From positions 1 to 31,811 of the forward strand of contig NW_003129291.1 in NCBI RefSeq assembly GCF_000003605.2: a stretch of 31,811 bases of DNA, given 5' to 3'. Below the pieces are notes generated by a model, which worked only from the letters and a program-made list of their open reading frames with translations, did not search any database and had not been told where the DNA came from. The position numbers and the translations under genes were made by a program. Source of the DNA: Saccoglossus kowalevskii. Lineage: Eukaryota > Hemichordata > Enteropneusta > Harrimaniidae. Shown here piece by piece: positions 1,195 through 31,811 of this stretch (positions are counted from its first letter, which is position 1; every line of letters starts with the position of its first letter).

Positions 1195-1286
1195 TAATTA
1201 ACAGTTTTGGCCTATAACCCCTGTTATTTACACCGACTAAAGCAGGGAAATAAATTATGCTAGAAGATAAGTAAATAAACCAGACT

Positions 1287-2061
1287 AGCCTTAACATTAG
1301 TAGCTGGATTATTCACGGATTAGGCACCAAATGTGGTGAGAATCATTTTATAACAATAGTAGATGGTTTTGATATCTTTTGTTTACAAGAAACCTGGTTA
1401 GATAGCAATAGCAGTAGCCCAGTTTTCGATGTTAGCAAATTTAGTTATCTTAGATCAGATAGAAAAAGAATATCAACAAGGAGTAGGCGAGATTCAAGAG
1501 GTGTTGCCTTGTTATTTAAAACAAAGCTCAAAAACGGTTTATGCAAAGTTGAATCTCGAACGAGCGATTTTTTATGATGCAAATTAGATAAGCATTTTTT
1601 TCTCTCTAAAACATGATATCTATTTAGGATGCATCTACATTCCTTATGGGACTCTGTTTACCATATAAACCATGATTACTTTTATAGTTTTGAAAATGAT
1701 ATCGCAAGGTTCTCCCAGCAGGGTGAGGTGGTAGTTAGCTTAATAGATTATATTGCATTTGGTAGCAATGATCACATTCCTACGCCCCAAACTATAATTC
1801 GGACAGCTTTACTAAATGGCAGACAAAAGATTTGCACATAAATAAATTTGGTAAGCAGTTAATAGAACTGTGTATTAGTAACAATATGATTTTTGTCAAT
1901 AGCAAAACACTTGGTGATCTGTTAGTAAATTTCACTAGCCACGATCCAGCTGGTGCTAGCTCAATTGATTATTTACAAACACATTCAATACTTCAAGGTC
2001 AATGATTTAAATTATTTTTCTGATCACTGCCCAATACAATTATCATTTTCAATTTATTGTA
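1287..2061 (+). pseudogene. LINE endonuclease domain, frameshifted
   Basis: The frame starting at 1287 reads SLNISSWIIHGLGTKCG and then the APE-endonuclease signature FCLQETWL near 1390. It continues with FSYLRSDRK and RGVALLF, and stops at TGA 1575-1577. Homology resumes in other frames. DIYLGCIYIP falls at about 1614-1645. The block ending GEVVVSLIDYI (about 1715-1755) seems to have lost part of a GDFN-type motif. ELCISNNM (near 1865-1890) and the terminal SDHCPI motif (2022-2040) follow. These are the usual landmarks, in order, of a LINE endonuclease that nicks the target DNA. At least two frameshifts and one stop make it non-functional. Confidence 0.85.
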
Positions 2062-2580
2062 AAATAGATATGCACATAAAAGAGCAATTATATTCCCTTC
2101 CCTCCAAGTACATATGGGAAGATGATTCTGCAACTAAATATGGAGGGACATTAAGAAATCTTGACACTGTAAAACAACTCCATAGTTACCTTAAATACAA
2201 TATAACAGATTTGGATGTTAATGAATCAGCAAAACAGTTTGATGAAATATTGATAAATACATCAGATAGTTGCTTGAAAAAATAAAGCAAATCAGAAAAA
2301 AAAATGTAAAAAACAAAAACACCCATGGTTTGACAAATCTTGCAGTGAAATAAGAAAAAAACTCATCAAACTTGCAAAGATTTTATCCCAACAGCCGAAC
2401 AATCCAATCGTCAAACAAAACTACATTATACAAAACTAATTAGAACAAAGAAAAACAAAAATTAAAAATTCAATGATAAATGATGAATGCAATGGGCAAT
2501 GCAAACCAAAATGCAAACATTACAAAAAAGGAAATAATGAGTGCAACAAAAAAGTTAAAGAAGAAACAATCAGCTTGAGA

Positions 2581-4417
2581 AGATGGCATAACAAATGAAT
2601 TGTTAAAAACAAATAATGAATTACTTAGTCAGCGTATCATAAAATTATTTAATCACATCATGAAAACTGGGAAATTTCCGGAAAAATGGAAATCAACAAT
2701 GTTGGTACCATTTCACAAAAAGGTGATAAAAGTAACCCAAATAATTACAGAGCTGTTGCACTGTCAAGCTGTCTGTCAAAATTGTTCACAAGTGTAATGA
2801 ATGAAAGACTGATTTCTTAAGTAATAATTTACTAACCCAAGTGCAGTTTTCGAAAGCAAAACAGAACAACTGATGCTATCTTTCTATTAAAAACAGCAAT
2901 TGATAAGTCACTTTACAGTCAGAATGTAGAAAACAATCCAAAACGCTTGTACAGTTGTTTCGTCGACAGAAAAGCATTTGACCTTGTTTGGCGAGATGCG
3001 CTATTTCTAAAATTACAAAATTTAGGTATAAATGGTAATTTCCATGATATTATCAAGTCAATGTACAAGGATACACAATATAAAGTAAAGTTGCCAGAAG
3101 GAATAACTGAGGGGTTTTCATCAACATGCGGAGTTAAACAGAGCTGCAATCTGTCACCAACTCTGTTCAATATGTTTCTGAATGACTTACCAGAGATTTT
3201 TGGGGAAAACACTGATAAACCTGTTTTTTATTGGCGACATACCACTAAACTCAATCCTGTATGCAGATGACCTTATATTGTTGTCAGAAACTCAAGATGG
3301 GTTACAAAATTGTTTGAACAAATTATCAAATTACTGTAACCAATGGAACCTTGTTGTAAACATAAATAAAACAAAAGTAATGGCTTTCAACACTGGTAAC
3401 AGAATAATAAAAAATCTTAAGTTCACACTAGATGACAAAAACATAACAGCAGTAACAGAATTTTGCTACTTGGGTATAATGATTACACCTAATGGGAAGT
3501 TTAAATTAGCACAATCAATGTTAAAGAATAAAGCAATGAAGGCGTTATGTAGTGTCCGATATTCAATTCTGAATCATAAAATGATATCAACTTCATTATT
3601 CTTGAAACTGTTTGACCAGTTGATGACACCAATCATAATGTATGGTGCTGAGTTATGGGCTGACGAGATATCTAATAACAATATGTTAGACCAAGTAGGT
3701 AGTCAGTTTTACTGCTTTTTACTTGGTTTATTGGTATAAGAGCAGAGCTAGGAAGATTTCCAATTAGAATAAAATAATTCTGGCAAAAATTAAATATTGG
3801 TTTGCTGACAATAATATTATAAAATGTGCATTAAATGAAAACAAAGCAATTAAATCAAAGTAGATAAAACATATTGAAAATAGTATTGGTCACGAGGAAC
3901 TGGAGGAAGCAAAAGAACAGCACAATGTAGATAATATTAGCCAGTTATCAATCATCATGAAAGTGAAATTAAGAGACCAATACAAACAGTCTTGGAAGAA
4001 GCAACTGAACTCATCCACTAGTAGTAGAGACAAAAATGAAGGCAATACACTTAGGACATATAAATAATTTAAAATATACTATGAACTTGAAAATTATCTA
4101 AATAAAATAAATAACTTTAGCTTACGTAGAATTCTATCAAAATTCAGGCTTAGTGATCACATTTTGGAAATTGAAATGGGGAGAAGAAGAAAACCAAAAC
4201 TACCAGCAGCAGAAAGAGTCTGTAAAAATGTGATCAAGGCGATATTGAAGATGAAAAACATTTTCATTTTGAAAATGAAAGAAAAATCCTTCTGAAAAAC
4301 AGTAAAATTACCTCAAGTGTAAAGAACAAAGACGTAATGTTCTTGAAAACTATGAAAAATAACATTGCTCTGTCTCTATATCTTAAACATACCATATACA
4401 AAGCACCGCCTGTGTAA
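2581..4417 (+). pseudogene. LINE reverse transcriptase and C-terminal region, frameshifted
   Basis: The RT begins with DGITNELLKTNNELLSQRI and FPEKWKSTMLVPFHKKG (2582-2725). After a frameshift come FVDRKAFDLVWRDALF (2959-3006) and GVKQSCNLSPTLFNMFLNDL (3130-3190). A further frameshift in a T-run near 3225 precedes ILYADDLILLSE, which holds the catalytic YADD box at about 3254-3265. The thumb-like region contains NINKTKVMAFN and FCYLGIMITPNGKF, and ends near MYGAELWADEI. The C-terminal part survives as fragments RAELGRFPIRIK (about 3740-3770) and IEDEKHFHFENERKILLKN (about 4240-4300). The last frame, NIALSLYLKHTIYKA, ends at TAA 4415-4417. This pol region would have copied the element's RNA at the nicked target. 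Multiple indels make it a pseudogene. Confidence 0.88.
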
Positions 4418-6127: not shown

Positions 6128-6247
6128 CAATATCACAGTGTTTTCCATTGTATCCAGTTCCAGTACAGTTGCATGTATATGACCCGTCTGTATTAGTACA
6201 TATACCGCTGTGTTGGCATGGGCTAATAGTTGAACACTCGTCTATGT
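6128..6247 (-). CDS. Exon encoding a calcium-binding EGF domain (LamG-EGF gene)
   Basis: This 120-nt minus-strand exon is flanked by a good acceptor (TGTCTTGCAG before 6247) and the donor GTAAGT (after 6128). It is phase 1 at both ends. The translation starts DIDECSTISPCQHSGIC and continues TNTDGSYTCNCTGTGYNGKH, ending CDIG. All six EGF cysteines are present. The DIDEC start and C-x-N-x4-Y-x-C-x-C are the standard calcium-binding and Asn/Asp beta-hydroxylation signatures of EGF-CA domains. The previous visible exon of the gene is the EGF exon at 10830-10946. The donor implies at least one more exon to the left, not identified. The product would be extracellular. Confidence 0.9.
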
Positions 6248-10829: not shown

Positions 10830-10946
10830 CTGCTTCACAATTTGCACCGTTGTATCCGGTTCCATCACAGTTACATGTATACATCCTAACTGCATGACTA
10901 CATACTCCATTATGTTGGCAAGGACTGTGGACACACTCATGTGACT
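10830..10946 (-). CDS. Exon encoding an EGF-like domain (LamG-EGF gene)
   Basis: This 117-nt minus-strand exon is phase 1 at both ends, with acceptor CTGTATTGCAG and donor GTGTGT. It translates as ESHECVHSPCQHNGVC, SHAVRMYTCNCDGTGYNG and ANCEAG. All six EGF cysteines and the usual G-Y-G turn are present. Unlike the downstream EGF exon it lacks the acidic D-x-D-E-C start. It also has His where the hydroxylated Asn/Asp would be, so it is probably a non-calcium-binding EGF. It is separated from the LamG exon by an intron of only about 160 bp, so both surely belong to the same transcript. Confidence 0.9.
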
Positions 10947-11108: not shown

Positions 11109-11855
11109 CTGTATATAGGGCAGTGATTTGCGATTCATTTAAGGCTGAGTAGTAAATCCTGAAATCCCAGAAAGAACCGTAGACAGCATAGTATGTCCAT
11201 AAATTCCCGAAACATGCAGAATTCAAGCAGTTGTTAGATGTCCCGAGTGTTAAACGTGAATACGTATCCGAATGAGTTTTCATCTCTGGATTCGAATCTG
11301 TTTCCACCATAACAGCATTGTAATACATACACACTCCTTCGTTAGGGTGAAATATGCACACAATATGAATCCAGCTATTAGATAAATTATAATCGGTATA
11401 TACCACCCTCCAATTCTTCTCTCCGCTTTTGGCTATAAAAATCAATTCAGACACTGTCCTATCATATAACAGAGATATTCCCGTAGAGGAGGTCTGGCCT
11501 CCAGATGACAGAATGTAGCGCTTGGTATTTCCAGTGTGTTGGTTTGCTGATAGCTTCATCCACAGGGACAATGTTAGTCCGTTTTCACACTTAGAAACAT
11601 CACTGACACATTTACCATTATAATCACCAAAATCTATATATTGGTTCCCTGTGAGTGTTATTGCACAGAAAGGAAACATTGTTTCATGTGCAACTGTCAA
11701 CGCTGGCTGTGTCTCTGTTGAGAATTCTATTCTTCCTGATTCTCCACCATCCACGTTTGATGCGATATCATCACATGACATTTGTTCTATACATTGATTG
11801 GCAAGAGATTCATTTTCATCACAGTATCCGCTCAGATCCCAGTGTTCATCTGGCT
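11109..11855 (-). CDS. Exon encoding a LamG-like jellyroll domain (LamG-EGF gene)
   Basis: A 747-nt minus-strand exon encodes 249 residues, bounded by acceptor TTGTATTCACAG and donor GTTAGT, phase 1 at both ends. The first 45 or so residues (EPDEHWDLSGYC, ESLANQCIEQ) form a cysteine-bearing linker. The rest is a concanavalin-A/laminin-G type beta-sandwich. Its landmarks are YIDFGDYNGKCV, ENGLTLSLWMKL, KRYILSSGGQ, GISLLYDR, ELIFIAKSG, NSWIHIVCIFHP, GVCMYYNAVMV, RLTLGT and the last strand GSFWDFRIYYSALNESQI. This matches the LamG-like (LamG_3) family seen in secreted and adhesion proteins. It would act outside the cell, binding glycans or proteins; the ligand is unknown. The open frame extends upstream past the acceptor without a signal peptide, so the acceptor sets the start. 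It is followed by EGF exons. Confidence 0.92.
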
Positions 11856-14420: not shown

Positions 14421-15212
14421 AACGCTACTGTGTGTGAAGCTCGTATATACATTTACTAAAAGCGGGCGCACATTGAATTTGAGTGTTGTGACCGTGATGC
14501 ACGGTACAGTGGACAGAGGCAGAGGCACGACATTTTGCATGGTTGCGATATTTTGCATGGTCCTACATTTTGAGTGGTAAATTGTGCTGACATACGACTG
14601 TTTCAGCTTTCAGCAACGCCCCCCCCCCCTTCTGGATTGGTAACGAGTCGACAGTGGTAAATATATAACCACGTTTCGACTGTTTATTATTTAGCCGTAC
14701 TTTTATGTAGATGTATATACTGTAAAAGTTGTGGTTATATAGGATTATAATGAAACACTGACTTGTAACCCGTTTACCTACAAAGCCTACAGCCAGCATG
14801 CTAATACATTCCACGCTGATGCAAAGTAGGCAGCTTGGCATCGTCCGCCTTCATGGTGTTCGGACATTCCTTCCTCCCCAGCCCAATACGGTAACTCATT
14901 CATGACTATGTATGTCACGTGGTTGCGCGATAGAAGGTTTACCGGCCAGCTTTGTTGTAAATAACTGCCAAAAGCACTTGAAGCTTGGCATTTCTGATGT
15001 CTTCATCTTCGGCCTTATTTCTTCCGATATTTGTTGCAGTGACATCATGAGACCTGAGGTATAATACCTGCTCTTTCATCATAATACTTCACAGTGTTGA
15101 AAACACTATAAGCACGCTCGGTAAAGCATAATAACATAATAATTTATCATTTCCAGTGCGAACACAATCGACTCGGAACTAAGTATAACTTAATTTGCTT
15201 TAGTCTGAATAC
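14421..15212. other. Intronic stretch, no feature recognised
   Basis: Contains a C-tract at about 14620-14630 and otherwise ordinary AT-rich sequence. The minus-strand frame at 14563-14841 runs through the C-tract and shows no protein-like motif. Confidence 0.4.
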
Positions 15213-15389
15213 CTGAGAGTTGCATGATGTCTCGATATCGTCGCTGTATTGCCTCGACATCCGAGCCAACACCACTTCCACTGTGCGTTGCGATATTTAT
15301 TTTCGGGTCATGCATGTTCACCGTCCGGCAACCATCACGGTGAAAACAAAGGCCGAAAACGGTAATTTGGGATGGTTGTTGAGACTCCC
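15213..15389 (-). CDS. Second exon of the LamG-EGF gene, unrecognised mature N-terminus
   Basis: A 177-nt minus-strand exon lies between acceptor TTACACTGTTCAG and donor GTATTC, with CAG at the exon edge. It is phase 1 at both ends, so it joins in frame to both the signal-peptide exon and the LamG exon. It encodes 59 residues: ESQQPSQITVFGLCFHRDGC, RTVNMHDPKINIATHSGSG and VGSDVEAIQRRYRDIMQLS. Two cysteines lie five residues apart. The rest is polar and ends in a basic, helix-prone segment. I know no family for it. It would be the first part of the mature secreted protein. The frame stays open beyond both splice sites, so the borders rest on splice signals and phase. Confidence 0.55.
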
Positions 15390-16061
15390 CTGAACAGTGT
15401 AACAAGATTACTACTACTGTTAAACGCGGAAAATCGAATCCGTTCAAGCAAGAAATAGTATTGTAATATTCACCAGAATACAAGATGAACGGAAATGTTA
15501 TACAAATAAACCCTTTCAATGAAATTGGTGTTTAATATTTCTTTCCTAAATATATACCTTAAGAGAACGTTTTTATTCCCAGTTTTAGTGTATCACGTGC
15601 GCAATTTCTCTACAATAACATACCCTTGCAAAACATAGTTCGCGAGATTTACGTTTTTATTGAAGTCTGGCATTAATAAATAGTTCGGATGTCACATGCG
15701 TTTTTTTCAATTTTTCTAGTGCGTTTTCACATGTAACAACTACGCGGAAATGGCCCTGCGTAGTGAGGTGATTGACTACAAAATTGAAGGCTGCCAGTGA
15801 GAACACTGTCACATACACACAGTCCTAATGAAATACTTCAAGGTGATATTGGAGTGCTTTGCTGGAACATTCACCTTGACAATTCAAGATGTCCGGTTGG
15901 TTTACTGCATCAACGGTCTCGTCGACCTACAGAGGAAACACGGTTTACCAGACTTCATAAGCATACACACAAAAATCGTACATGGTGTACAGTGCATTCT
16001 GTACTTCCGGGTCATGTCTGCAGGTCGAAGGTTACCTCGTAAAATGCGACGCGATTTTCCA
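15390..16061. other. Intron between signal-peptide exon and exon 2 (left part)
   Basis: Two overlapping plus-strand frames (15797-16042 and 15828-16070) of about 80 codons are present. Neither has a recognisable motif or good splice sites. I treat them as chance frames in a locally GC-richer stretch. Confidence 0.35.
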
Positions 16062-16225: not shown

Positions 16226-16689
16226 ATATGGACCACAGTTTTTTTGATTTTGAAGAACAAAAACAGTGTGTATCTCTTCGCTACGTGAAATCACTACATG
16301 ATTCAATGTCAAATAAAATATATTATACTATACTTGGTTATAAGGGGTGTTGTTTTCCTGCAACTTTGTTTCATGTGTGGGTTCTTTTCAATCTATTTCA
16401 CCGGCATTTCTGAGATTGGGTGGAGTTCGAACAGTAGTTTTTATATAAACAGAAACAGTGTTGTACTATTATAAACATCGCGCCTACTGCTTATCGGGGA
16501 AACAATATAATATTACTACTTTCCACTCACTAGCTGTAACCGTAATTGACGACTGAGCCAAATAGCCGTTTCGCTCCACTCAGGTGTTACCGGTAATACA
16601 TTACTTCAAATGCGTGTGTTAACACTAAATATGTTAATGTGAGTGCTTTCATGTAATACCCGCCAATAAAACAAAGGAAATGTGATTAC
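16226..16689. other. Intron between signal-peptide exon and exon 2 (right part)
   Basis: AT-rich, with no exon or repeat recognised on either strand. Confidence 0.4.
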
Positions 16690-16756
16690 CTTGTACATTG
16701 CATGAACTCCTACTAACAAGAACAAACACAACACACATACACGTGAGAAAGTTCAT
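16690..16756 (-). CDS. Signal-peptide exon of the LamG-EGF gene (copy A)
   Basis: The 67-nt coding part of a minus-strand first exon begins at ATG 16756-16754. The context CAGCAAAATGA has A at -3. It ends CAAG before the donor GTAATC. The translation is MNFLTCMCVVFVLVSRSSCN followed by VQ. This is a short n-region, a hydrophobic core and a small-residue cleavage zone, typical of a secretory signal peptide. It ends in phase 1, matching exon 2 at 15389. An exon of the same length and about three-quarters identity lies at 19744-19810. That conservation, including flanks and donor, supports this being a real exon. The transcription start is not defined. Confidence 0.65.
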
Positions 16757-18868
16757 TTTGCTGACATCGATTGAAACACAATTCTTGTAGCGTAACGTCA
16801 TCGACTTCATTCCTCTAGAATGAAAACATTCACAATATGAAACATGATTAAAACTGTATTATAAACATGTATTCATATCCAATGTAATTTATAGTTATAT
16901 TTTCACGAATGGTGTTTGTTAATTAAATTGCAACCATTTAATCACCGAAGCGACACAAAGTGCTTAAAAACTGATGAGTACTATTTTAAATTAAAAACTA
17001 ATTTAATTTACACAAACCAGCCCTTTTCAAAACACGACAGACCGACATGGGCCAATTATTCCTGGAGTTTTTAATTGGACACGCGCAATTTACTCAAATA
17101 TTTTCCTGCCAATGCGGGTTTTCTATGCACGTGGCATTCTCTCCGTTTACGTCAGCAACTTTTAATTATAAGCTAGCCTTTTAGCAAACAGACGAGCCAA
17201 ATTGTTGCAACCTTATCAGAATTTTGAAATATTTTAACTCAAACAATTACCCACAGTGGTATGATAAATGTTATTTTAGTGATTATTGCAGTACTGGCTA
17301 CGGGTGTATGCCATACTCGGACCAAAATAACACGTGATATTTAAAATGGCTAGTCCTCTTTTGACTTGGGTTATTTGCCGTTTACGGGAGGCCGTGATGT
17401 TCGAAGTTCCTGGGTATAATAACAAAAATAAACAACAATATACCAAACATGTAATCGTCACGTATTGTACATCAATAGTCCATCAGCAAGGGTATCACGA
17501 ATATCTATTATGTATACAACAAATCGTAAGAGAAATTCTAATTAATCCTGTTGGATATTTGCATGTAGAATTTCGGTATTAGTTGTCCAGCAATTAGTAG
17601 TTTTATATTATTTTATATCTTTGATCTACTTGTGTTTTTGAATATTATCTTTAAATGAATCGATTCCCGTACTCGGAACCGCAACTATAAATTTATCAAA
17701 CGCATTGTTCTATCTTATGTTATTCTAATCTGTTTTGAAGGATCAATGAACCTCAGAGGAAAACGAAAATTACTCTCATTATGTGACCTTGAACATTTTA
17801 TTTTGTTAGGAACTACTTATGTTTAAAAACTCGACAACAATGTGTTACTGCAGTGGTATTCCACTGTCGACTAAGACTCTACAATCGCACAGAAAGTTAG
17901 GTTGTTTGCGGAGGTAGAAAATTATGTTCAGACAGACGTGCGCACACACTTATTTTAGAAAATGTTAACACTTTCCAAATTCATGACTGAACACTATACT
18001 CAGTTCTGATCTACAAAACTGGAATTTTATTGAATAAATTGAGCATATAAATTATCACAGTTTCAGCCCTTCAGCTATGAAGATTTCCCAGAACGTCTGA
18101 TTAAAAGTGCGTGTGGCGGGGGTATTTAGTTCTGATGAAATGACGCAACCTGCTGAAAAATTATCTGTATTTGCCGTACAGCGCATATAGATAAGTGAAA
18201 CCATGTTTGAAAAGTATGTATGATTATACGTCATGAGTACCCATGCTAAAACCTGGCCTTTTTAAAAAAATAATAACACATTCTAAGTACGACAACATCA
18301 AAAACGAACCCTATTTGCGAAGGAATTCTCTGGAATTCTGAACACAATGTATGATTCACCCGGGAGGTTCATAAAAAAATAATACATGGAGATTGAAAAA
18401 CAACCCGTTATATTAAAAACATGCCCTTATTTTGTTTTGTTTTCCAGCTCTCAACATCGTACGTGCATAGAAATGATTATCTGTTTGAAATACGCGTGTT
18501 TGTCTTATAGTATGCGTACCGAGTTTCAATTCAGATGTCCTGCCGGGATATCGTAACAAATACCAAAATAATTCGCAGATACGACGCAATATCACGGGGA
18601 TTGTCGTATAATAACCTAGAGATACTCCGGTGATAGATTATTGATTTAGCTCTGAATAAAGAAAAAAAAGTCGGTCCGGATTCTCCATAGAGCAGAGACA
18701 CACAAGGAAAGCAGTTAATTATTTAAAGTAGGATATACAATATACATATTAAAAAATTCAACACCTTATTAGAGTAGCAACTGAGTATACTGTTTGCAGG
18801 ACAGATCTTAGAACTTTATTATCGCTTTTAATATGATGAATATAGAGTGAGAGAAAACATGTTTCGTT
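16757..18868. other. Stretch between the two signal-peptide exons (left part)
   Basis: No exon is recognised. I looked for a paralogue of the 177-nt second exon on the minus strand and did not find one. A tandem duplication follows at 18869. Confidence 0.35.
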
Positions 18869-18977
18869 AACGTAGGAATACTGCAGATACAAACATGCAC
18901 TGGCACCACTGTCCCAGGGAGATAACGTCAACGTAGGAATACTGCAGATACAAACATGCACTGGCACCACTGTCCCA
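18869..18977. repeat. 61-bp tandem duplication
   Basis: A 48-bp block starting AACGTAGGAATACTGCAG and ending CCACTGTCCCA occurs at 18869-18916. It recurs identically at 18930-18977, with a period of 61 bp. The lack of differences implies a recent event. Confidence 0.9.
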
Positions 18978-19128
18978 ATAAGAGAAACCGACGCATTAAT
19001 ACACGTAAAGCAAAGATTATGAATACTTTAAGAGGGTGTTGAAGCAATTCATATTAGCGCAAGTCGCTGCAGCAAATATAACATTTTCGAAAAATCATAT
19101 GGGCTCTACCCTAGAATTATCTAATCTG

Positions 19129-19557
19129 CTATTTTATATCCGCGTCATCCGTACAGCTATCAGTAACAACGTATCCCGGGTAAACGTGCTTAATATGCCT
19201 AACACTAAGCTTAGAGTCACCAAGATATACGCGCGGAAGGACACTGTTTCTTCCGATGAATGAATTGTATGCATTCCGACTTCTTAGGGCGCTAAATAAT
19301 AACTGCGTAAGCCGTGGTTGGCACCCTGCACAGAGTGTGCAGCACTCGAGATGACCGTGAATATCAACACACAACGATCGCACTAATAACTTGTCTACAG
19401 TCCCGTGCAGGTGTTGTGCAACGATAACGCTTGGGGGTTCTCGATTGCTGTTATAAACGCTAGCAAGATCGACGTTATTTGAATACGGGGTTGGAAATAA
19501 CTGTCGAGGGTAAACAGGGGAAAAATAATGAAATATGTGGGGAAAGTAAATTCCCAA
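19129..19557 (-). other. Unrecognised 142-codon open frame downstream of signal-peptide copy B
   Basis: An unusually long open frame for this DNA, cysteine-containing in the middle (LCVDIHGHLECCTLCAGC). The LC...G...C spacing loosely resembles LCFHRDGC in exon 2 of the neighbouring gene. The nucleotides near CCCCCAAGCGTTATCGTT also weakly resemble that exon. However, the only good acceptor (GTTTATAACAG) is phase 2 in this frame, whereas the upstream signal-peptide exon ends in phase 1. In the phase-1 frame a stop comes quickly. It could be a decayed copy of exon 2 or chance. I cannot assign a function. Confidence 0.25.
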
Positions 19558-19743
19558 GTGGTCCGATTTTAAGTCAATAAGCCTTAACGGCGAAAACGTT
19601 AATACCCAGTGTGTCTAAAGGAATGAGACATATCAAAGATAAACTCGTGCAACGAAACGGAGGCTGTCTGAACATAACATATGTCTCTCCACGTATTTTC
19701 TGTCGAAAATAATTTTGGGAAAGCAAAAAAAAAATGCGATTAC

Positions 19744-19810
19744 CTAGTGACTTGCACGAGCTCCACCTAACAAGTATATACACAACACATAGATATGTGA
19801 GAAACTTCAT
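19744..19810 (-). CDS. Paralogous signal-peptide exon (copy B)
   Basis: The 67-nt coding part starts at ATG 19810-19808 and ends CTAG before the donor GTAATC. The translation is MKFLTYLCVVYILVRWSSCK followed by SL, which aligns residue for residue with the exon at 16690-16756. The flanks match too: TCGATACCAGCAAG before the ATG, compared with TCGATGTCAGCAAA. The exon ends in the same phase 1. It may be an alternative first exon of the LamG-EGF gene, splicing to the same exon 2. Otherwise it is what remains of a tandemly duplicated gene; no other duplicated exon was recognised downstream of it. Confidence 0.6.
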
Positions 19811-19958
19811 CTTGCTGGTATCGATGAGAATACACTGTTTCACACTCTTCTTCACTCACTACACTCTTATGTGGCATTGCTACCAACTCCTGAATGAACG
19901 GTCTTGCGCGACTAGAAATGTCTGTTTCAAATTGCCTGTAGGATTGTAGCCATGGCAA

Positions 19959-20624
19959 CTGTTCAAATTAGCTACCAACAATAGTGTCATTATTTAAATT
20001 ACAAGCATCTTAATATATAATTATATTGAGGTAATATTAATGTGTTTTAAGCCAGGTATATATCCGGCAATGTAATTTACGAATTTCTCATAGAGTTGGT
20101 TGCTTAGGTTACTGCGCATACGCAGACTCGATTCCGCGTGGGACGAGATGGTTAATTTCATAACCGGTCTTTGGGACTCTTGTCTTGATGTCTTGTAATT
20201 TATTATACCGAGTTGTCATAATGTTTAGGTGTATGCATGAACACGTTTCTCATATTTTAAAAACATTTTGTAAACATTCACCGGCAACCAAATAAAAATC
20301 GACATGTTCACTACACCTGATTGTGCCAATAACCCTATGACTGTGTACAGTCCCAAACCCAAACCCCACCAAACCCCACCCTCTGCGCTTTACCCGCGTG
20401 ATCAAAATCTATACATACAAGTATGACCACAAAGACGATCGTACTGATCAGTACTATTTATTGTAATTGTGTTCCTACTGCTCAACCAAGGTATCAGTGA
20501 AAGTCGAAAATAATTTCTAATAAGAGATACCAATCTAATTGTTTTCAGCCTGAGGTGACTTTTTATCCTGGTGTATATCGTGTTTCGTTCTCAGCGAACT
20601 CTTTCTGCCTGAGTAACTGCGTTT
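19959..20624. other. Unassigned stretch upstream of signal-peptide copy B
   Basis: Possibly promoter-proximal for the minus-strand gene. An A/C-rich stretch CCCAAACCCAAACCCCACC lies near 20353. No exon or array is recognised. Confidence 0.35.
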
Positions 20625-21110
20625 TAATCTGAGGTGTCTGTGTTTTAACCTGTGGCAACTGTTGTTCCAGTCTGTGGTGTCTGTTGTTCAGTCTGTAGGG
20701 TCTGTTGTTCAGTCTGTAGTGTCTGTTTTCTGTCTGTAGTGACTGTTTTTTTTTACTGTAGTGTCTGTTTTTCAGTCTATGGTGTATGTTTTTTTAGTCT
20801 GTGGTGTCTGTTTTTCAGCCTGTCTTGGTGTCTTGTCTGTGTTTCAGCCTTTGGTGACTGTTGTTTCAGTCCGTGGTGTCTGTTATTCAGCCTGTGGTGT
20901 CTGTTTCTAAGTCAGTAGTCTGTTTTTCAGTCTTTTGTGTCTGTTTTTCAGCCTGTGGTGTATGTGTTTCTACCTGTGGCGTCTGTTTTCCAGTTTGTGG
21001 AGTATGTTTTACAACCTGTGGAGTCTGTTTTTTAGTCTGTGGTGCCTGTTTTTTCAGTCCGTGGTGCATTTGTTTCAGTCTGTGGTTTTGTCTGGGTTGT
21101 CTGTATTTTG
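20625..21110. repeat. 21-bp minisatellite, degenerate
   Basis: Repeated units of CTGTTTTTCAGTCTGTGGTG with variants (GTCTGTTGTTCAGTCTGTAG early, ATGTGTTTCTACCTGTGGCG later) run for almost 500 bp. The best part (about 20940-21060) keeps a strict 21-bp period, which is seven codons. Frames therefore stay open on both strands: the plus strand reads VCFSVCG-like heptads and the minus strand KQTPQTE-like heptads. Elsewhere the period slips to 20-30 bp and T-runs expand. I see no start context, splice sites or conserved flanks to make this a coding array. Confidence 0.85.
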
Positions 21111-21509
21111 GTGTTGGGTATTTGTTATGATTCATTCCCATTTTTTGACACACTACATAAAATAGTATAGTATTATATTGAATAGAATTTATCTCATTGT
21201 TTCAGTGTTACCAGGCAACAATAGAGACCGTCACGTGAAAGTTTGATAAATGTTCTCAAAATAAGGAAAACGTATATTGAATATTTACGAACCTAGTGAA
21301 AAACTACGTAGATTGCAATTCACCCCGAGGGGAACCTATTTAACTTAAAAACAAATAGGCATAAATTCAACTATGACCTTCTCCCGCGAATTGACACTTT
21401 CCATACCTAGTAACTTAAATAAAATATAATTATCATAACCAGATGTTTTGAATTAGTGAGGGATTTAAAAAAAACAATGAACACTTTTAAGAAGTGCTAC
21501 TGATGTTTT
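21111..21509. other. Unassigned stretch
   Basis: AT-rich sequence between the 21-bp array and the inverted dispersed repeat. It includes CACCCCGAGGGGAAC near 21321, a small palindrome around CCCCGAGGGG. No gene is recognised. Confidence 0.4.
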
Positions 21510-21745
21510 GGCTGTAATAAACCACATAGCACTGACTAAAAGTAGGAATAATTTTGAGATATTAGGTTGTAATATAATAATACTAGGAAGACATAAAATA
21601 TTCTCTCTTTCTCTCTCTATCTCTCTCTGAACTCGCCTCTGTGTCGTCGTCAGGGCAACATACTATCGATCATAGATCATTACAATTACGTGTACGCATT
21701 TTTATATTACCTTGTCATGTCTATGATAATATAATTTAACAAAAT
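21510..21745 (-). repeat. Dispersed repeat family, copy 1 (inverted relative to copies 2 and 3)
   Basis: It shares long diverged blocks with the reverse complement of 25600-25835. These include AAACCACATAG.ACTGACT, GTTGTAATATA, AGAC.TAAAATATT, CTGAACTCGCCTCTGTGTCG, TCAGGGCAACAT and ACGTGTAC, in the same order. A (CT)n run at 21601-21628 has expanded inside this copy. It has no coding potential. It may be a SINE- or MITE-like element. Confidence 0.75.
21601..21628. repeat. (CT)n microsatellite
   Basis: An interrupted CT/TC run. It is absent from the equivalent position of repeat copy 2 near 25728, so it arose after the copies separated. Confidence 0.9.
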
Positions 21746-21765
21746 TTAGTCAAATCGCAATTTTT

Positions 21766-21782
21766 AATATATATATATATAT
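21766..21782. repeat. (TA)n microsatellite
   Basis: A run of alternating TA dinucleotides at the edge of dispersed repeat copy 1. Confidence 0.9.
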
Positions 21783-22497
21783 TTCTTACGGCAGTTACAT
21801 AATCTGTTAATCTCGGTAGCGGTTGTATTGGTGTTGACCGCTGTAAGCTGTTGTTTGTTTTGATTGCAGATTATTTGCTTCACGTTATTCATACAACTGT
21901 AGCTCAATTTGATGGTGTTACGGCTGAAAATTTTCCTGAGTTTGTTTCCATGTTGGAAACACTTATCAACCAGGGTGAGGAATCTTCTCCCGACGCTGTT
22001 AGTGACATTTTTACGGGAGGGGGGTAAACCAGAGGATGTTTTTACGGGGTCTGTTTGCCCTTCTTCTTTCAGTGGAGGGTTCGAATTTGAAGTGATAATC
22101 ATATCCACTTTGATTTAGAGCTGTCTGGTAGGGTGGTGCGGCTAGATCAAAGTGTCATATGTATATATATATGAGATAATATACTCTACAGAGAATACAT
22201 GTAAAAGCATTGCTATCTATAGAATGCCTGAATTGTGAATAATTTACGTGTCAACCTATTTGCTGTCCCATATTTATTTGTACATATAATTACAAATATG
22301 TAATATAACGTATGTCACATGGTCTCCACAAAAAATGACATGTGTGTTGTGTGTATGGGTACTGGGCCAGTCACCCAGAATTAAACACATTCGCCACAAG
22401 ACGAAATACAGTTACTTCAGTTAATTGTTCTTTTATTTTATTTAGAATTCAGTAAGCTATTTTACATAGTATTACTACTGTTTGGCTGCCTATTTGT
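21783..22497. other. Unassigned stretch
   Basis: No gene is recognised. The overlapping opposite-strand frames at 21764-22108 and 21909-22118 have no motif. A short TATATATATA run lies near 22161. Confidence 0.4.
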
Positions 22498-25577: not shown

Positions 25578-25835
25578 AATAAACTGATGATGAGTCTATG
25601 TAATTTCACATTAACGTAATTAGACTAATGAAGCATTACTAAGTAATATTAAAAACTGTGTACACGTATTTATAACGATCGATGAAGGATACCATGTTGC
25701 CCTGACGACACAGAGGCGAGTTCAGGAGTAAATATTTTAAGTCTCCCATGTATTATTATAGGGGACTATATTACAACTTATGGCTCTAAATTATCTGACA
25801 TTGAGTCAGTACTATGTGGTTTACTACGATCAAAA
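25578..25835 (+). repeat. Dispersed repeat family, copy 2
   Basis: It starts AATAAACTGATGATGAGTC and includes GCCCTGACGACACAGAGGCG and GTCTCCCATGTATTATTATA. It ends around GTACTATGTGGTTTACTACG. It matches copy 1 in inverted orientation over most of its length, and copy 3 (28796-28948) directly at both ends but not in the GACGACACAGAGGCGAG core. It lies in an intron of the acidic-tail gene. Confidence 0.75.
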
Positions 25836-27851: not shown

Positions 27852-28330
27852 GCTCCATCGATCTCACATTTTTCAAACTCGAAAAACAGACGAAAGAAAA
27901 GTCGAATATAATTTATAAAAAATACCAGTTTGGAAAATGTTAGTTGCTCCATCGATCCCACATTTTTCAAACTCGAAAAACAGACGAAAGAAAAGTCGAA
28001 TATAATTTATAAAAAATACCAGTTTGGAAAATGTTAGTTGCTCCATCGATCCCACATTTTTCAAACTCGAAAAACAGACGAAAGAAAAGTCGAATATAAT
28101 TTACTAGTATAAAAAATACCAGTTTGGAAAATGTTAGTTGCTCCATCGATCCCACATTTTTCAAACTCGAAAAACAGACGAAAGAAAAGTCGAATATAAT
28201 TTATAAAAAATACCAGTTTGAAAAATGTTAGTTGCTCCATCGATCCCACATTTTTCAATCTCGAAAAACAGACGAAAGAAAAGTCGAATATAATTTATAA
28301 AAAATACCAGTTTGGAAAATGTTAGTTGCT
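27852..28330. repeat. Five-copy 94-bp tandem array
   Basis: Each unit runs GCTCCATCGATCCCACATTT, TTCAAACTCGAAAAACAG, ACGAAAGAAAAGTCGAATAT, AATTTATAAAAAATACCAG, TTTGGAAAATGTTAGTT. Five copies are nearly identical. The first has TCTCAC for TCCCAC. The third carries a 6-bp ACTAGT-containing insertion (about 28103-28108), making it 100 bp. The last has CAATCTCG for CAAACTCG. Minus-strand frames across it repeat because the unit is repeated. 94 is not a multiple of three, so they are not coding. Confidence 0.97.
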
Positions 28331-28795
28331 CTTACAAATTTCGCCAACGCCCCACCTTCCCTTCAACGATATTTATTTTATTATAATAAATCGCGAAAGC
28401 TAAACGGTCTGACTCCATTCACAAATTCTGGGCTGTTTGTACAGTTTTACTAATCAGTCAGGCTACGCGTCCAACTGCGCCGGGCAGTAAAAGTTCACAG
28501 ATTTAATATCTGAGGTTAATGAAGTGACTTTCAGGTTTTTTTTCATGTCGGATATATCATGCTGTTTTTCTTTGACAAGTCTCTGACAATGTGTACCACG
28601 TTGCATTGTATCCTGCATAGTGCTCTATTGAAATACTAAACTTGACCAATTTTTCACAAAGGACGGCACCACGAATTGTAAAATTGTGATAATAACCTGT
28701 ATGGATAGTCAGTAGAATCTTGTTGCGTTTGGTTATACGAATGAAGATGATTGTGGTGGAATGACGAAAAATAAACTAGACATCGACACTAACAA
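28331..28795. other. Unassigned stretch
   Basis: AT-rich; no gene, array or conserved motif recognised. Confidence 0.4.
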
Positions 28796-30922: not shown

Positions 30923-31811
30923 GTAGGCATCAACTAATTTCTTTTTGGACAGTGTTACATTCCTGCAATCCGTTATCAATCGCAATGCAGGCATCAACTA
31001 TTTTTTTCTGGACAGTGTTACCTTCCTGCAATCCTATTATCAATCGCAATGCAAGCATCAACTAATTTCTTTGTGGACAGTGTTACCCTCCTGAAATCTT
31101 TTAATCAATCGCAATGCAGGCATCAACTAATTTCTTTGAGGACAGTGTTATCTTCCTTCAATCCGTTTATCAATCGCAATGCAAGCATCAACTAATTTCT
31201 TTGAGGACAGTGTTACTTTCCTTCAATCCTTTTATCAATCGCAATGCAGGCATCAACTAATTTCTTTGAGGACAGTGTTACTTTCCTGCAATCCTTTTAT
31301 CAATCGCAATGCAGGCATCAACTAATTTCTTTGAGGACAGTGTTACTTTCCTGCAATCCTTTTATCAATCGCAATGCAGGCATCAACTAATTTCTTTGTG
31401 GACAGTGTTATCTTCCTGCAATCCTTTTACCAATCGCAATGCAAGCATCAACTAATTTCCTTGAGGACAGTGTTACTTTCCTGCAATCCTTTTATCAATC
31501 GAAATGCAGGCATCAACTAATTTCATTGAGGACAGTGTTACTTTCCTGCAATCCTTTTATCAATCGCAATGCAGGCATCAACTAATTTCTTTGTGGACAG
31601 TGTTATCTTCCTACAATCCTTTTACCAATCGCAATGCAAGCATCAACTAATTTTTTTGAGGACAGTGTTACTTTCCTGCAATCCTTTTATCAATCACAAT
31701 GCAGGCATCAACTAATTTCTTTGAGGACAGTGTTACTTTCCTGCAATCCATTTATCAATCGCAATGCAGGCATCAACCAATTTCTTTGTGGACAGTGTTA
31801 TCTTCCTGCAA
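30923..31811. repeat. 65-bp satellite array with higher-order structure (right end outside window)
   Basis: About 13.7 copies of a 65-bp monomer are present: GCAGGCATCAACTAATTTCT, TTGAGGACAGTGTTACTTTC, CTGCAATCCTTTTATCAATC, GCAAT. The first three copies are the most diverged, and two of them are one base shorter. From the eighth copy on, three monomer types recur in order. Type A has TTGTGG, TTATCTT and TTTTACC. Type B has GCAAGC with TTGAGG. Type C has GCAGGC with TTGAGG. This gives a 195-bp higher-order unit. The array is cut by the window edge inside the fourteenth copy. Confidence 0.97.

Follow-up and report, generated by a model that had tools for sequence, protein, structure and literature searches.

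Paired signal-peptide exons upstream of a LamG-EGF gene in Saccoglossus kowalevskii, candidate alternative first exons

Results

Two paralogous signal-peptide exons on one contig

The window analysed here is one whole contig, C2102 (31,811 bases), of a genome of 572 Mb in 4830 contigs. Two short exons are located on its minus strand, the proximal first exon A (16690–16756) and the distal first exon B (19744–19810), each carrying a signal peptide of 22 codons plus one nucleotide and ending in phase 1 at a GTAATC donor. The translation of exon A is MNFLTCMCVVFVLVSRSSCNVQ + 1 nt and that of exon B is MKFLTYLCVVYILVRWSSCKSL + 1 nt. The coordinates and lengths of the original prediction, which had placed paired minus-strand exons of 22 residues plus one base at these positions, were thereby confirmed, as was its description of a common SSC motif, a common donor and about a quarter of differing positions: the two exons agree at 51 of 67 bases (24% differ) and the donor reads AG/GTAATC in both. 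The ATG, the open frame, the SSC motif and the phase-1 GTAATC donor are intact in A and in B.

Comparison of the two regions by blastn (1.3 kb × 1.3 kb) gave a match of 74 identical positions out of 94 (79%, E = 9e-19), which spans from 15 nt 5′ of the ATG to 12 nt inside the intron. The second-best ungapped 67-nt match to A within the window reached just 36/67, and dinucleotide shuffling of the window, repeated 40 times, gave at best 37/67 to A; a resemblance by chance is thus excluded. The sequence match and the common phase bear out the proposal that the two are paralogous signal-peptide exons. When the 572-Mb genome was searched with a 35-place pattern, allowing up to three mismatches, three places were found, namely A, B and position 151370 of contig C4070, and the reversed control of this pattern gave 0 matches in the same genome. 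The search for further copies suggested in the original prediction therefore yielded one, the first exon of C4070 (151370–151304), which is located upstream of LamG-EGF exons.

The downstream gene body and the reading frame

Downstream of the paired exons, and likewise on the minus strand, are a LamG exon (11109–11855; Pfam Laminin_G_3, 7.4e-15), in phase 1 at both ends, an EGF exon (10830–10946; phase 1-1) and an EGF_CA exon (6128–6247; phase 1-1), the latter identical to an EGF exon of C4070 at 115 of 120 positions. Laminin_G_3 followed by EGF domains agrees with the LamG-EGF gene that had been predicted. A PDB search with the LamG exon returned nothing useful. Both A and B end in phase 1 and the LamG exon begins in phase 1 at 11855, which is the likely acceptor for both; A joined to this exon reads ...SSCNVQ-EPDEHWD, in frame.

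According to the original prediction, both first exons could be spliced onto an exon 2 at 15389. This is contradicted by the finding that 15389 lies within a dispersed repeat (examined as 15150–15420, minus strand), which holds the whole proposed exon (15213–15389). A search of the genome with the DNA of 15150–15420 gave 1674 candidates, of which 40 were scored, one being the window and the other 39 lying elsewhere with 77–82% identity; a search with the translation of the proposed exon gave 591 candidates, and 51 of the 150 scored, about a third, contain in-frame stops. The exon was initially kept in our gene model and was dropped once it was found in the repeat, as was a match upstream of the LamG gene on contig C2722 (84% over 108 nt) that had seemed to be a conserved exon and turned out to be one of the same 150 repeat matches. 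An open frame with AG/GT borders makes this repeat easily mistaken for an exon. No tRNA gene and no known RNA family was detected in the window, the repeat included. With the proposed exon 2 placed inside a dispersed repeat, direct splicing of A and B to the LamG exon (11855) is more likely.

The interval between B and A (16757–19743) contained no LamG or EGF exon (tblastn with the LamG and first EGF exons as queries, lowest E = 3.8) and no open frame in common with the DNA upstream of the LamG exons of five paralogues (E ≤ 0.001). Hence the sole candidate partner found is the LamG exon at 11855, and a separate gene behind the 19.7-kb copy, which the original prediction had considered as a contrary outcome, was not apparent by either measure. 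The possibility that A serves as an internal cassette after B, using a CTAG acceptor-like site 58 nt 5′ of its ATG, was ruled out because, on hand reading, read-through from B gives GAG GAA TGA, a stop.

Paralogous genes on other contigs

A genome search with the LamG exon produced eight other matches at E ≤ 0.001, five of which are clear LamG paralogues with 42–51% identity (three on C1594 and one each on C4070 and C2722). The six aligned LamG exons agree throughout in donor position and acceptor phase; five of them also agree in acceptor position, the sixth, a C1594 copy, beginning three codons later. A single first exon of the A/B type was found on C4070, 13 kb upstream of the LamG exon of that contig. 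This exon probably also joins LamG directly, since it is the sole frame upstream of LamG that C4070 has in common with the present contig (E ≤ 0.001), in a comparison that would miss any exons the two contigs do not share.

On C4070 the EGF exons are followed by pieces of EGF-Sushi, EGF_CA, HRM-like and GPS-like type as well as by hydrophobic segments. On C1594 we again found HRM-like, GPS-like and hydrophobic pieces, and on C2722 an HRM-like piece with neighbouring ones. None of these C4070-type downstream pieces (Sushi, HRM-like, GPS-like, hydrophobic) was found in the window, the contig ending before them. The GPS match of C4070 scored 19.5 bits against a Pfam cut-off of 22.5, and HRM was likewise below its cut-off. 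A genome search for 7tm_2, in which 112 of 112 candidates were scored, gave 76 matches, all of them outside C4070, C1594 and C2722; the joined membrane pieces of the relatives gave no 7tm_2 match and the C4070 pieces no PDB match. To judge by these pieces, the relatives resemble membrane receptors that carry a GPS-like site, for which we do not claim the name adhesion GPCR. The description of the gene as secreted in the original prediction is accordingly doubtful, as its C4070 relative runs on into Sushi, HRM-like, GPS-like and hydrophobic segments.

No A- or B-like first exon was found for the C1594 and C2722 paralogues in the DNA fetched, where such exons may hide in gaps (N over 185913–199666 in C2722 and several N stretches in C1594). 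Between 312 and 420 kb, C1594 holds three LamG-EGF genes, each preceded by C-type lectin exons (Lectin_C, 1.5e-14 with Pfam for pieces of one copy), and GPS-like and hydrophobic exons lie nearby; two of the three genes are closely similar and in inverted order.

Relationship and relative age of exons A and B

Over the 67 bases, B and the C4070 exon are identical at 59 positions, A and B at 51, and A and C4070 at 50. With A taken as the outgroup, two changes are unique to B, three to C4070 and 11 to A, while three sites differ in all three; B has thus decayed no faster than the C4070 exon. All three exons have kept the hydrophobic core, the ATG, the open frame and the donor intact.

Synonymous differences amounted to 1.0 per 15.2 sites between B and C4070, 6.5 per 14.3 between A and C4070, 4.5 per 13.8 between A and B, and 82.1 per 150.2 for the LamG exon. 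In Fisher tests against the LamG exon (rounded counts), the B–C4070 comparison differed (p = 0.0003), in contrast to A–C4070 (p = 0.42) and A–B (p = 0.15). As the synonymous divergence of A from C4070 is like that of the LamG exon and that of B is far less, A seems to have diverged in step with the LamG exon and B to be younger, in a comparison of few sites in which constraint on synonymous sites of the first exon could also act. Between B and C4070, 7.0 nonsynonymous changes stand against 1.0 synonymous change, so that no purifying selection on the B peptide is visible.

The EGF exon at 6128–6247 differs from its C4070 counterpart at 1.0 of 24.7 synonymous sites (p = 6e-7 against the LamG exon), and the introns around it align to C4070 solely near the exon. 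Together with the diverged LamG exons, this likeness suggests an exchange between the loci.

The DNA upstream of exon B

The DNA in common between B and C4070 extends upstream in blocks across 150–240 bp, and on the intron side for 17 nt alone. The first block (19811–19960, minus strand), on the 5′UTR and promoter side of B, is 87% identical to the C4070 upstream DNA over 144 ungapped columns and includes an Inr-like TTCATTC; the second, farther upstream (20004–20047, minus strand), comprises 44 nt with 86% identity to C4070 and an AT-rich, TATA-like stretch. TTCATTC occurs some 60–90 nt before the ATG in A, B and C4070, and we take it to resemble the initiator motif; its TCATTC core would place putative transcription starts near 19895 for B and 16821 for A. 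In a global alignment of B and C4070, identity was 64% over the first 50 nt upstream of the ATG, 88% and 84% in the next two stretches upstream, and fell to 12% at −200 to −150. A genome search with 19700–20000 matched B and C4070 alone and gave no match at A. The corresponding search with 16600–16850 matched A alone and missed B and C4070, and is thus of limited sensitivity.

The original prediction had offered a partial tandem duplication as one origin of the pair. Simple local copying of A fits badly, because B is closer to the C4070 exon (59/67) than to A (51/67) and has upstream DNA in common with C4070 that is without a match at A.

Other features of the contig

A broken LINE-like element in several frames lies at 1275–3739 on the plus strand, with RVT_1 pieces (4e-10 and 2.5e-11) together with an endonuclease-like piece that falls below its cut-off. 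Tandem arrays occupy both contig ends (26 bp at 1–360 and 65 bp at 30925–31811) and are perhaps the reason why the assembly stopped there; others are located at 27852–28331 (five copies of 94 bp) and at 20628–21086 (21 copies of about 21 bp). Two inverted arms about 4 kb apart (21506–21703 and 25652–25835), made up of three pieces of 35–58 nt with 82–83% complementarity, are perhaps the ends of a mobile element. Part of a minus-strand open frame at 21764–22114, namely 21846–21965, matches C2722 (223458–223577) with 72.5% DNA identity; this frame, which gave a weak DUF match alone in Pfam, presumably resembles a mobile-element protein.

Discussion

The arrangement described here may be read as a single LamG-EGF receptor-like gene with two alternative first exons that exclude each other, an interpretation that, on the sequence features set out above, we hold to have about an even chance of being correct. 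Exon A would be the native proximal first exon, which diverged along with the LamG exon, and exon B would be a distal module of promoter, 5′UTR and signal exon of the C4070 type, younger than the split of the LamG exons. Either exon would be spliced in phase 1 directly to 11855, across the repeat in intron 1; transcription from B, its splicing to 11855 and the activity of its promoter are what we infer in such a scheme. By the −3/−1 rule the signal may be cleaved after SSC, in which case the mature proteins would differ by three N-terminal residues alone, NVQ from A or KSL from B. Given so small a difference, alternative use would act on expression: the choice between A and B would set the place and time at which the receptor is made and not its binding. 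It is conceivable, although we regard it as doubtful, that the module of promoter, 5′UTR and signal exon moved between paralogous receptor loci after the LamG exons had diverged, which would represent the capture of a promoter and would provide a second control region.

Against the use of B stands the explanation that it is an unused relic, either the promoter and first exon of a duplicated C4070-type gene that has lost its body or a copied fragment, and we take this to be a serious possibility, albeit one of rather less than even probability. It would account for the greater similarity of B to a first exon elsewhere in the genome than to A, for the stretch from B to A holding no LamG or EGF exon, and for the low synonymous divergence of B from C4070, by which it looks younger than the gene body. 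B nevertheless retains its ATG, frame, donor and upstream blocks, it has changed no faster than the C4070 exon, and the conservation that ends 17 nt into the intron goes on in the upstream blocks. How much these points weigh is limited in several ways. When the eight B–C4070 changes were placed at random, 36% of the simulations retained the ATG, the open frame, the GT and the core, and 14% did so with the 16 A–B changes; the intactness of B is therefore weak proof of its use and could be explained by chance. The upstream conservation together with the short intron match would fit a retained promoter function, but a chance breakpoint just inside the intron would look identical, and the conservation is patchy.

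Two further explanations concern the history of the locus and the contig itself. B could be an original first exon of this gene, later gene-converted toward C4070, with A an older duplicate that was lost from C4070 or is hidden in a gap there. The EGF exon at 6128–6247, with one synonymous difference in about 25 sites and introns that align close to the exon alone, would be in line with such conversion, and an N gap of C4070 (139985–141848) could hide an A-like exon; on the other hand, no A-like exon was found in the readable part of C4070 between 130 and 160 kb, nor genome-wide within three mismatches of the pattern, which a more diverged exon would escape, and the sites are few. On balance we consider this history unlikely. 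That the order of B and A is an assembly error, or that B is part of another transcript with exons off this contig, appears very improbable: the contig is short, has tandem arrays at both ends and lacks the 3′ part known from C4070, yet the window contains 0 N, and B, A and, downstream, the LamG exon follow one another in gene order, with B and A on one strand.

The reading of A and B as alternative first exons finds likenesses in known systems. In UGT1A, tandem variable first exons precede common downstream exons, and the variable exons of both protocadherin-alpha and UGT1A encode large parts of the protein, unlike A and B, which would contribute just the signal peptide and roughly three residues of the mature protein. 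The protocadherin-alpha cluster likewise has tandem variable first exons before common exons (see PMC4151104). Mutually exclusive first exons before common downstream exons form a known class, type I, described in a plant study (PMC2174465), and A and B as candidate first exons would be like it in this arrangement, both carrying the start codon; the commonest type I case described there leaves the ORF unchanged, whereas A and B are paralogous and both encode a signal peptide. In mouse, adhesion GPCR genes possess several promoters and numerous 5′ start exons, with 23 of the latter in Adgrf5 (PMC6667449), and resemble the present gene and its relatives as multi-exon receptors with a modular extracellular part. 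They are unlike them in that the window has LamG and EGF exons alone and the GPS-like and HRM-like pieces of the relatives fall below the Pfam cut-offs. In Schistosoma japonicum, a segment comprising a signal sequence and a core promoter has been duplicated to several loci, in a family on 34 genome contigs with flanking repeats (PMC3434034), in contrast to A, B and the C4070 exon, which make up three genomic places, each followed by LamG-EGF exons.

For the model of this gene, the proposed exon 2 should be dropped, being a dispersed repeat. If B is used, transfer of a signal-exon module would have given the gene a second promoter and left its mature protein nearly unchanged, and exons of very different ages would stand side by side in one gene, B and one EGF exon being young and LamG old. 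Such mixed exon ages would mislead the dating of duplicates from a single exon.
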